Positions 22,371 through 26,934 of a stretch of 32,988 nucleotides of DNA are shown here, piece by piece. Origin of the DNA: Spirochaetales bacterium (GTDB lineage Bacteria > Spirochaetota > Spirochaetia > JABMQR01); NCBI GenBank assembly GCA_023139255.1, contig JAGLNY010000069.1:1-32988 (forward strand), given 5' to 3'. Numbering within the stretch: the first letter of the stretch is position 1; the number at the start of each line of letters is the position of its first letter. A program made the position numbers and the translations under genes. The notes under the pieces are model-generated. The model was not told the origin of the DNA, searched no databases, and saw nothing but the letters and a program-made list of their open reading frames with translations.

Positions 22371-23922
22371 CATGTTAAATACTTCAAAAAATTCCAGTTC
22401 TCTGGTTTTTATGGTTTGTACACTTATTTCAAGATTGTTAGGAATTGTACGAGTCCGACTAATCTCTACATATTTTGGTGCCAGCGGTATAGCAGATGTA
22501 ATAAACTTCACATTTAATATTCCCAATAATTTTAGAAAACTTTTAGCTGAAGGGGCTTTATCATCCGCTTTTATTCCAATTTTAACAAAGACTGTGCAGC
22601 ATGATGAGCAATATGTACATGATAAGTATGCACAAACTTTGATACATAGAATAATGACATTCCAATTACTCATTCTCTTACCAATATCCATAATAGTATT
22701 TTTAGTTCCAGAGACAATAATTGGATTTCTTTCAGATTTTACAGATCTAAATCAAATAACAATTTCTGCTGCCTTATTAAAATATTTTATTTTGTACCTT
22801 ACGATTATATCAATAATAGCTGTTTTACAAGCAGCATTGCAATGCAGATCAAGATTTACAATAACAGCTTTGTCACCCTTGGTTTTCTCAGTCTCAGTTA
22901 TACTCTCAATTGTTTTTTTATCTGAAAAATATGGTGCTATATCTATGGGTATAGGAGTTTTGATAGGAGGATTGCTTCAGGGATTGTTGCTTTTACCTAT
23001 ATATTATCGGATAGGTTATAGTTTTCGTATCAACCTGAAATTCTATAACCCCTATTTTATCTCTGTTATGAAATCCTTTGTTCCAGTAGTTATTACTTCA
23101 ATCATTCTTATTGCTTCACAACAAGTATCATATTTTTTAGCAACAGGACTTCCTGTTGGAGGGGTTACAGCTTTATCCAATTCACTTGTATTCTGGCAAA
23201 TGCCTTATGGGGTATTCTATATCTCAATTGCTACCGTTTTATTCCCAGCAATGAGCAGGTGTTATCACGAATCAGATAGAGTTGGGCAGGTAAAAAATTT
23301 AGAGAAAGGTATTGGCTACATTATTGTTTTCTTGCTTCCTTCAGCTCTGCTTTTAATGTTTCTAAGTGATGAATTGGTATTCACTATTCTTCAGAAAGGA
23401 AAGTTTAGCCCTGAAAACGCAATGCGAACTGCTAAATCCTTACGATACTTCACTCCAGGTTTAATATTTGCAGGTATTTTTAATTTTAATCAGCGTTTTT
23501 TTTATTCCATTCACAAATTTACCCATACTGTATATATAGTTATTATTTATGCAGTTTCTGATATTGTTATATCAATACTTTGTATAGCATTGAATCTGGA
23601 TGTAGCTGCTTTGGGGATCGGGAGCTCCTCCGCTTATTTTCTATCAGTTTGTGTACAGGGATTCTTTATTAAAAAAGAATTACCTGAAATACGGTTTTGG
23701 CAACTTTCCAAATATGCTTTTAAAATTATACTGGCAAATATACCATTAGCAGCCGGATTGCTGATTTATCATTTTTCAAATACAATTTGGTTTATTCAGG
23801 GAAGTACGTTATTGAATTTCTTTATTCTCTTTACATTAGGTCTTCTTTATTTAGTAATAGTAATATTTTCTTACCGAATGTTTCATATCGATTTTATTTA
23901 TAAAAAAAGCGAATCGACCTAA
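22354..23922 (+). CDS. murJ: Lipid II flippase MurJ (MviN)
   Basis: MVCTLISRLLGIVRVRLISTYFGASGIADVINFTFNIPNNFRKLLAEGALSSAFIPI. ORF track start 22276 overlaps tgt heavily; ATG 22354 or 22372 is likelier. Confidence 0.95.
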   Translation: MVKKNNMLNTSKNSSSLVFMVCTLISRLLGIVRVRLISTYFGASGIADVINFTFNIPNNFRKLLAEGALSSAFIPILTKTVQHDEQYVHDKYAQTLIHRIMTFQLLILLPISIIVFLVPETIIGFLSDFTDLNQITISAALLKYFILYLTIISIIAVLQAALQCRSRFTITALSPLVFSVSVILSIVFLSEKYGAISMGIGVLIGGLLQGLLLLPIYYRIGYSFRINLKFYNPYFISVMKSFVPVVITSIILIASQQVSYFLATGLPVGGVTALSNSLVFWQMPYGVFYISIATVLFPAMSRCYHESDRVGQVKNLEKGIGYIIVFLLPSALLLMFLSDELVFTILQKGKFSPENAMRTAKSLRYFTPGLIFAGIFNFNQRFFYSIHKFTHTVYIVIIYAVSDIVISILCIALNLDVAALGIGSSSAYFLSVCVQGFFIKKELPEIRFWQLSKYAFKIILANIPLAAGLLIYHFSNTIWFIQGSTLLNFFILFTLGLLYLVIVIFSYRMFHIDFIYKKSEST

Positions 23923-23939
23923 ATTAAGTCAATCCGCTT
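23900..23939 (-). terminator. Intrinsic terminator of the minus-strand greA transcript, overlapping the murJ stop codon
   Basis: On minus strand: AAGCGGATTGAC-TTAATTTAG-GTCGATTCGCTT (12-nt arms, two mismatches) followed by a T-run (A-run on + at 23902-23908). Confidence 0.7.
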
Positions 23940-23960: not shown

Positions 23961-26636
23961 TTAAAAAATAAAAGCAGTAATACTATTAATTCTATAAGAA
24001 TATTCACGTTCGTTAATGATAAACTGTATTTCTTCCCCAACAGAATTATTCAGCAGTTTTGAACCAAAAGGAGCAAGATAAGAAATTATATTCTCAGAAG
24101 GATTTGATTCCCAAGGACCAAGAATTGTAAATGTCTCCTCACTGTTCTTATTTAAATTAGTCATTTGGACTATTGTCCCATATGAAACTTTTGATATGTT
24201 AATTTCTTCCTGTTTAACGATAGTTGCACGATCCAATTCATTAGTAAGTTTACCAACAGCTATGTTTAGAAGTTCCTGACGTTCTTTACCAGCCTTGTAC
24301 TCTGCATTTTCTTTTAGATCTCCTAAAAGTCGGGCTTCGCCAATTTCCTGAGAGTTTTGCGGGATTTCGACATCAAGAATTGTTTGAAGTTGTTTATGTT
24401 TTAAATCATACATTCTCTGTGTAACCAACAATCCGCCTGATATGGTTGTAGTACGGGAATTGTCTTCACCATGAAAAACAAAATTTGGGAATCTTTCCAT
24501 TATTATATGCTTTAACTCTATTAATACTGCAGGATCGAGTTCGTCGACATCTTTTACAAGACTATAAACACGTTTAATGGAATTCTGATCACTTTCATAT
24601 AGATACTGGTGAAGTCCTTTTTCGGTAAATAGGATTCCCGATATTATCTTACCAATTTTTCTATTAAAACTTACATCCTTTTTATTGCTTACAGCACGAT
24701 TAGATATATCCAGAAGGTGAAGTAGGGCGAGAAGGATTCTTTCAAAATCTATACCAATATAATCTTTCCAATATTCTCTGTCATAATATTTTACAAGCCA
24801 AAGAAACATTTCCGGCATTTCTTTATAGCGCGAATATGAATCATTAAATAATTGCAGTAAAGTATCATTAAAACCTTGGTCCTTCAATTCATCTATGATG
24901 AAATTACTCAAATAATAGGGAAATAGCTGCTTGAAAATCATATTCCAATCATTACGGAGAAACATTACTTCTTCCAGAAATGATCTCTTTAATTCAGCAT
25001 CCGGAAGATGAGAAAATATTTGATCTATATTTTGTATAGATGTAAATAAATCAGAAAAATTTACTTCAATATTCTGATTCAGAAAAGGGTAAGATTTTAC
25101 AAGCCGCTTAACGATTAAATAACTTGTTACTACAGTATCTGTAACATTAGCGAAACTTTTTAAAATACTAATGAAATATGAGAAAATCTCAGTAAAATTA
25201 TCTGATTCGGGATCACTATTCTCCAGGAATTCACGAAGAATTTTTACCTTTTGATAAAAATCTTTTTCTGCTTTAAACATATTCAATGTTTTTTCCTCAT
25301 AGGAAACAGGTGTTTCTCTCACTGAATATTCATCGGAACGATCCGGATTAACACCAAAATATGGATCTGTCTTAAGTAATTTTTTAGCGGCGGTGTTCCA
25401 GGCAAGCCACTCATTTGCTGTAAGTATTGATGGTACAATTTCAGCTTTTATTTGTTTAAGACTGGCTGAATTATTGAAACTTGTTATAATTGTTCTTAGT
25501 GTCCATAATATATCCTGCTTTATTTTAGTTTTAAGCTTCTCTTTCGGGAAAACGCTTTTAATAACCCAGATATGATTTTTCAACAGCACATTTAAAGCAT
25601 TTACTGCCATCTTCAGGGACATTGGATGATTACGTTTATTAATAAAATCAATGATAAGTGAATCTTCAAGTATTTGCTGGATTCTACCAATTCCCCATGT
25701 TTTATGATGAACAAATGTTCCCTGATCAAAGGATATATGTTTCTCAAAATCAGCTATTGCTGCATTGATATCACGATAGGACTGTGTCAGATTTGTTTTA
25801 TCAATATAATCCTCAAGTTTACTATGATCTTTATATTTTGATCTGTAACAGGTTATAAGCCGCTCTCTAGCATCTGCATTTTTAGGTTGATACTGTAGAA
25901 TCTCTTTTAATATGTAAATTGATTTGTTCCAATTACTTTCTGCAAAGTATATTTCATACATACCCTCAAGCATTTGGGAAGCCCTGTCTTTGTTGAGTAT
26001 TTTTACCACTCGTAAAATAATATTAATCTGATTATCAAAATCATCGGGATTGTAAATCAATAATTTTTGCCAAATATCTTTTATCTGTGAGAAGTTCTTT
26101 GTGTTGATATAACGATGAAGTGCTTTCATAAAATAAAAAACTGCTTTTTCAAGATCATTTTGTTCTTCGTAACGATCAGCAATAAGTTTTATCAGGTCGA
26201 TTTCATCATAATCTACTTTTATTAATCTTTCCCAAACTGCAAATTTTTCTTCTTCATTTCCCAGATTGTCATAACATTCAGAAAGAGAACGGAGTGCGAT
26301 TGCATTTTCACCATATTTCAGGAGACTCAGACAAAGAAATTCAACGATTTGCCATTTTCTATTATCATAAAAAAGGTTAATAAGCTGAATTATGTTTGAG
26401 TCATCAATTAAATGTTTTTCCAATGAAATAATTCCGGAAATATATAGTGCAATAATACTGTTTTTTGTATGATTTAAATGCTCATCACAATTTTCCTTGA
26501 TTTTGATCCAGTCATTTTTATGTACATCAGAGCTCAAAAGGTCATCTAATTCTTCAAAATTATTAACTGTATAGCTGTTTATTGTTGCCCTTGTCCATTT
26601 TTCTTCATTTAGCATCTCTGCAATTTTATCGATCAT
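23961..26636 (-). CDS. greA: Large GreA-type transcript cleavage factor: TPR-like N-terminus + Tudor/CarD-like segment + C-terminal GreA domains
   Basis: C-terminal GreA coiled-coil signature EIGEARLLGDLKENAEYKAGKERQELLNIAVGKL and GreA C-domain VSYGTIVQMTNLNKNSEETFTILGPWESNPSENIISYLAPFGSKLLNNSVGEEIQF. N-terminal ~750 aa lack GreA similarity. SD ggag upstream. Confidence 0.92.
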   Translation of the reverse strand: MIDKIAEMLNEEKWTRATINSYTVNNFEELDDLLSSDVHKNDWIKIKENCDEHLNHTKNSIIALYISGIISLEKHLIDDSNIIQLINLFYDNRKWQIVEFLCLSLLKYGENAIALRSLSECYDNLGNEEEKFAVWERLIKVDYDEIDLIKLIADRYEEQNDLEKAVFYFMKALHRYINTKNFSQIKDIWQKLLIYNPDDFDNQINIILRVVKILNKDRASQMLEGMYEIYFAESNWNKSIYILKEILQYQPKNADARERLITCYRSKYKDHSKLEDYIDKTNLTQSYRDINAAIADFEKHISFDQGTFVHHKTWGIGRIQQILEDSLIIDFINKRNHPMSLKMAVNALNVLLKNHIWVIKSVFPKEKLKTKIKQDILWTLRTIITSFNNSASLKQIKAEIVPSILTANEWLAWNTAAKKLLKTDPYFGVNPDRSDEYSVRETPVSYEEKTLNMFKAEKDFYQKVKILREFLENSDPESDNFTEIFSYFISILKSFANVTDTVVTSYLIVKRLVKSYPFLNQNIEVNFSDLFTSIQNIDQIFSHLPDAELKRSFLEEVMFLRNDWNMIFKQLFPYYLSNFIIDELKDQGFNDTLLQLFNDSYSRYKEMPEMFLWLVKYYDREYWKDYIGIDFERILLALLHLLDISNRAVSNKKDVSFNRKIGKIISGILFTEKGLHQYLYESDQNSIKRVYSLVKDVDELDPAVLIELKHIIMERFPNFVFHGEDNSRTTTISGGLLVTQRMYDLKHKQLQTILDVEIPQNSQEIGEARLLGDLKENAEYKAGKERQELLNIAVGKLTNELDRATIVKQEEINISKVSYGTIVQMTNLNKNSEETFTILGPWESNPSENIISYLAPFGSKLLNNSVGEEIQFIINEREYSYRINSITAFIF

Positions 26637-26725
26637 CTACTCATCTCCAATACTGGTATCTACATCTTTTAAGCACATCTACAATCAAACATAATCCAGA
26701 ATAACATCCTGGAATTTGATAACCA

Positions 26726-26753: not shown

Positions 26754-26934
26754 TACTCATTTTCCAAACTAATAAAACAGACAAAAAAGTTTTGTACTGC
26801 TTAATTAATGAGTAAAATTTACTGCTATAAGTATCCAGGATTTTAACAAAAAAGGATAGATTATATCAATACAAATACTGTTTTCAATCCATGCACTATA
26901 TAAAATACCCTATAAGTAATAATCTTTCAACCGA

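Follow-up and report, generated by a model that had tools for sequence, protein, structure and literature searches.

A spirochaetal long GreA with a helical-repeat, Tudor and probable winged-helix arm is a predicted transcript-cleavage factor that may be anchored on RNA polymerase

Judged by its sequence, the 891-residue GreA protein encoded in the stretch of Spirochaetales DNA analysed here (32,988 nucleotides; hereafter the window) belongs as an ordinary member to a known, mechanistically uncharacterised family and is no oddity of its own genome, and the long GreA is the standard GreA-type transcript-cleavage factor of its phylum, with predicted cleavage activity. Its interest lies in a Tudor domain of the type that binds RNA polymerase (RNAP), a probable winged helix and the variety of its natural forms, which are fused, split, tip-less or GreA-less. 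The reading that we put at about even odds is that the long GreA is an RNAP-anchored elongation factor, in which GreA would be a tethered cleavage module.

The long GreA gene (P0001) occupies positions 23961..26636 of the minus strand and starts with ATG. The open reading frame and its complete C-terminal GreA are exactly those given by the initial annotation, and the gene is, as also claimed there, the only recognisable one in the window to lie on the minus strand. A Shine-Dalgarno-like GGAG (26645..26648, minus) is found 8 nt 5' of the ATG. The gene had further been credited with a terminator and a promoter of its own. A terminator-like hairpin of 15 pairs is indeed present between the convergent greA and murJ genes (23907..23939, minus). 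The candidate promoter, TTGAAA-16-TATAAT with an extended -10 (26860..26887, minus), is an 11/12 consensus match only, and promoter-like matches were as common in shuffled sequence as in the greA region. Many relatives share the synteny, in which greA is flanked by tgt-murJ and, in the other direction, by rpe-dtd-recA-scpAB.

Residues 2–889 of the protein matched positions 6–903 of the 906 in NCBIfam NF011309 (PRK14720, "transcription elongation factor GreA"), scoring 972 bits where the equivalog cut-off is 714 bits. Thus, the fusion is an already curated and annotated family that covers the long form from end to end, in agreement with the earlier remark that it was not unprecedented. The family name assigns no function to the N-terminal 730 residues. 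Members were present in 242 of 247 sampled genomes of the phylum, including all 182 good-quality ones, and the best ~150 of the 242 matches all extended as far as the GreA C-terminus. In its own genome, whose assembly is 91.5% complete, nothing but the long GreA matched the Gre N-terminal domain. A search with the Tudor motif as a DNA pattern found, among the matches listed, almost exclusively spirochaetes. No functional study of long GreA was found in the open-licence literature, as judged by titles and the openings of abstracts, and we found undescribed the free-standing N-terminal proteins, the tip loss in genus g69 and the grouping of fused GreA domains as a single clade that are reported below.

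A second NCBIfam family, NF004969 (PRK06330, "transcript cleavage factor/unknown domain fusion protein"), which we take to be chlamydial, is 718 residues long and lacks most of the N-terminal TPR part. It matched only residues 169–886 of the 891-residue protein, with 158.7 bits, the cut-off being 697. NF004969 was also matched by a spirochaete protein that consists of the N-terminal region and has no GreA (E 8e-25), which argues that the arms of NF004969 and NF011309 are homologous.

The GreA module spans residues 736–891 in the AlphaFold2 model and was matched by Foldseek to E. coli GreA (1grj; TMt 0.80). It combines the two domains that define the GreA/GreB superfamily. The N-terminal coiled coil is at residues 736–806 (24219..24431, minus; Pfam GreA_GreB_N, PF03449, residues 737–806, E 2.9e-16, and Foldseek), and the C-terminal FKBP-like domain is at residues 815–889 (23970..24194, minus; Pfam GreA_GreB, PF01272, residues 815–887, E 4e-18). 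Sequence alignment placed the catalytic tip, GDLKENAEY, at residues 772–780 (24297..24323, minus). Its two acidic residues, D773 and E776, which are those expected at a Gre coiled-coil tip and from which cleavage is predicted, were retained by 65 of the 66 fused homologues in the alignment. The fold and the catalytic tip are therefore common to long GreA and to canonical GreA/GreB (E. coli 1grj and 2p4v), whereas canonical GreA/GreB has no N-terminal arm. In a phylogenetic tree, the fused GreA domains grouped as a single clade, separate from the free GreA proteins, among them that of E. coli (support 100/99).

We consider it very improbable that internal initiation or proteolysis yields the active form, a short GreA, and that the long product is incidental. 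The flexible linker in front of the module (residues 716–735; 24432..24491, minus), whose pLDDT falls below 50 at residues 724–733, could be cleaved. Against a short form stands the conservation of much of the N-terminal half, which is about equal to that of the GreA part. Moreover, no start codon with a Shine-Dalgarno sequence was found near the GreA domain in this gene, nor one conserved across the family; internal-start candidates at the domain border occurred in 15 of 66 relatives and were scattered in position. Thus, an internal start that yields a 17-kDa GreA, which the initial annotation had named as the outcome that would undo its reading, is unsupported.

The full-length AlphaFold2 model was built from 58 sequences and had a mean pLDDT of 87.7 and a pTM of 0.61, the latter making the relative placement of its domains unreliable. 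Its N-terminal part is a helical superhelix at residues 2–301 (25734..26633, minus), of which residues 95–265 are of TPR type. A profile of the N-terminal region matched designed and consensus TPR proteins of the PDB over about residues 95–265, with a best E of 3.8e-33, and a Foldseek search of the PDB with the full-length model matched TPR superhelices as well as GreA. Pfam TPR models matched several family members, and the single TPR matches in the 891-residue protein were below the cut-off. Together, the PDB profile and the model identify the tandem helical hairpins by which TPRs are defined. The TPR-like array read earlier from the sequence is thus borne out by the structure prediction that had been proposed for it.

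Behind the TPRs, residues 305–351 (25584..25724, minus) were modelled as a Tudor or CarD-RID-like beta barrel with pLDDT >90, and the segment 286–446 modelled alone had a pLDDT of 91. The best Foldseek match of this segment was the UvrD Tudor 7egt_B (TMt 0.86, rmsd 1.3), followed by the UvrD1 Tudor, the PcrA Tudor (5dma), the CdnL N-domain, CarD/RNAP-beta complexes and 7egs, in which the C-terminal domain of UvrD is bound to the RNAP lobe of E. coli, with E-values for the Tudor segment of only about 0.01–0.1. Among 59 family members, Pfam matches were to CarD_TRCF_RID (34/59), PcrA_UvrD_tudor (24/59) and DUF3553 (16/59); in the 891-residue protein itself, no Pfam Tudor/CarD match was above the curated cut-off and all were sub-threshold. 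The barrel, the structural matches and the repeated sub-threshold Pfam matches identify a Tudor fold of the UvrD/PcrA/CarD/Mfd type, as had been suspected, and suggest that it may bind RNAP beta. It is followed by two domains that the initial annotation had missed. The first, at residues 356–440 (25317..25571, minus), is a probable winged helix in the AlphaFold2 model, with weak Foldseek matches to the winged helices of Cdt1 and of the cullin WHB domain. The TFA2 winged-helix model of Pfam, which matched 2 of 22 members, was dropped as evidence, being absent from the families listed for 286–446. The second is another helical-repeat domain in the model, at residues 446–715 (24492..25301, minus), for which no sequence family was found.

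The binding face of the Tudor is where the case for RNAP binding can be examined residue by residue. In PcrA, H681, W684, K712 and L714 are each required for RNAP pull-down (PMC5397179). A HMMER alignment to PcrA and UvrD Tudor chains placed H311 and W314 of the 891-residue protein on H681 and W684, and the UvrD alignment placed H337 and M339 on K712 and L714. Among 78 sequences, position 311 was His in 77, position 314 Trp or Phe in 71, position 337 His in 68, and position 339 Met, Ile or Leu in 76. In addition, G317 of the Tudor was invariant and H311, F331 and L348 were nearly so. Long GreA thus shares the Tudor fold and conserved binding-face positions with UvrD/PcrA and with the RNAP-interaction domains of CarD/CdnL and Mfd. 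Different from UvrD/PcrA and Mfd, however, it has no helicase or translocase, and different from CarD it has no DNA-binding domain.

The site on RNAP may differ from that of PcrA. Of nine spirochaete RpoB sequences, a single one had PETGEIL, the known motif in beta SI1 on which UvrD/PcrA docks, and it was not found in the RpoB of the protein's own genome, so docking would need another site, and docking through the PcrA motif is not favoured. The one RpoB (L254) contains NPETGEILI at about residue 267, which resembles the PcrA-docking motif of B. subtilis RpoB. We also dropped the proposal that spirochaetes lack a UvrD/PcrA Tudor that long GreA replaces, because UvrD C-termini show divergent Tudor-like tails. 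The Pfam PcrA/UvrD Tudor model matched in one of nine genomes, and divergent tails were seen in the own genome and in others. For instance, a UvrD-like helicase of the own genome (L271) has at its C-terminus a Tudor-like tail, YHDQYGAGHI, which escaped the Pfam model. The own genome also contains two other genes of CarD/RID type, encoding 207 and 1116 residues and interpreted as CarD and Mfd. Docking of long GreA at beta1 would mean that it shares that site with these two proteins or competes with them for it.

In the mechanism that we propose for the RNAP-anchored factor, the Tudor would dock on the RNAP beta subunit in the manner of CarD, Mfd and UvrD/PcrA, and the arm would span the RNAP surface. 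When RNAP backtracks, the flexible linker would let GreA reach the secondary channel, and the TPR groove may bind a further partner. The arm would then be a standing RNAP-associated elongation factor and GreA its tethered rescue module. The tethering and recruitment suggested in the initial annotation are compatible with this evidence; the recruiting element best backed by homology, however, is the Tudor and not the TPRs to which the role had been given.

Relatives in which arm and GreA are uncoupled bear on what the arm does. In five families (f22, f16, f24, f33 and f50), a separate protein consists of the N-terminal ~730 residues, and a canonical GreA of ~157 residues is encoded elsewhere in the genome. 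No Gre was found in three genomes with N-terminal-only proteins, G163 (98% complete; arm locus L051), G012 (95%; L048) and G044 (80%; L052). Only short GreA was found in f34. The loci L211–L216 (f20 and f31) encode short canonical GreA, and most of these genomes also carry a fused long GreA. A spirochaete N-terminal region is also found at a contig edge in a record titled Syntrophomonadaceae MAG (L107), in whose genome a free GreA is encoded elsewhere; this contig is possibly mis-binned.

In genus g69 (f40), the fusion was intact and the GDLxENAEY tip deleted in 4 of 4 genomes examined (loci L045:1489-4206 and L217–L220), and no second Gre was found in the four genomes. The g69 form is presumably a natural cleavage-dead long GreA. 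The Gfh1-type Gre paralogues of Thermus are cleavage-inactive. Similar to Gfh1, the g69 proteins lack a working tip in their Gre domain; different from Gfh1, their tip is deleted outright, within a fusion, in the sole Gre found in the genome. Given that the arm persists without a fused GreA and with a tip-less one, it would have a role beyond cleavage. The N-terminal arm probably has a job of its own and is more than an accessory of GreA.

Such a job need not involve RNAP. It is possible, although we favour it less than the anchored factor, that the arm is a separate module, such as a TPR scaffold for protein or RNA, that was fused once to GreA and for which a role on RNAP is optional, GreA being its passenger. 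TPRs usually bind other proteins, and free-standing arm proteins occur in several families, with an unlinked GreA or without a detected Gre. In a reduced set from which the long f40 branch was left out, the N-terminal-only proteins also grouped together with a support of 87.8. In the tree of the larger set, they fell into two groups and the deep nodes were not resolved; the groupings in both trees would fit one fusion or one fission. What speaks against a separate module is that the Tudor is of the RNAP-binding type, with its binding-face positions conserved, and that the fusion to an RNAP factor has been kept across most of the phylum. An autoinhibitory or regulatory arm, which would keep GreA off RNAP until a signal arrives, is unlikely. 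The two are physically linked and the single Gre of the genome would need control, but a disordered linker separates arm and GreA in the model and the arm is retained where there is no GreA to inhibit.

The anchored-factor reading also has a bolder form, which we offer tentatively and hold about as probable as the separate module. The arm, with its TPR, Tudor and winged-helix domains, would be an unrecognised phylum-wide RNAP-associated elongation factor that works with or without GreA, and cleavage would be a dispensable add-on that was inactivated in one lineage and never fused or lost in others. With fused, split, tip-less and GreA-less proteins all occurring in nature, the question of the arm is directly testable.

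Lyme disease, syphilis and relapsing fever are all caused by members of the spirochaete phylum. The spirochaetes appear mostly to rescue stalled RNAP with a protein several-fold larger than usual, whose main part is functionally unassigned. If the arm anchors on RNAP, the phylum would have a scaffold, unseen in model bacteria, built into its elongation complex.
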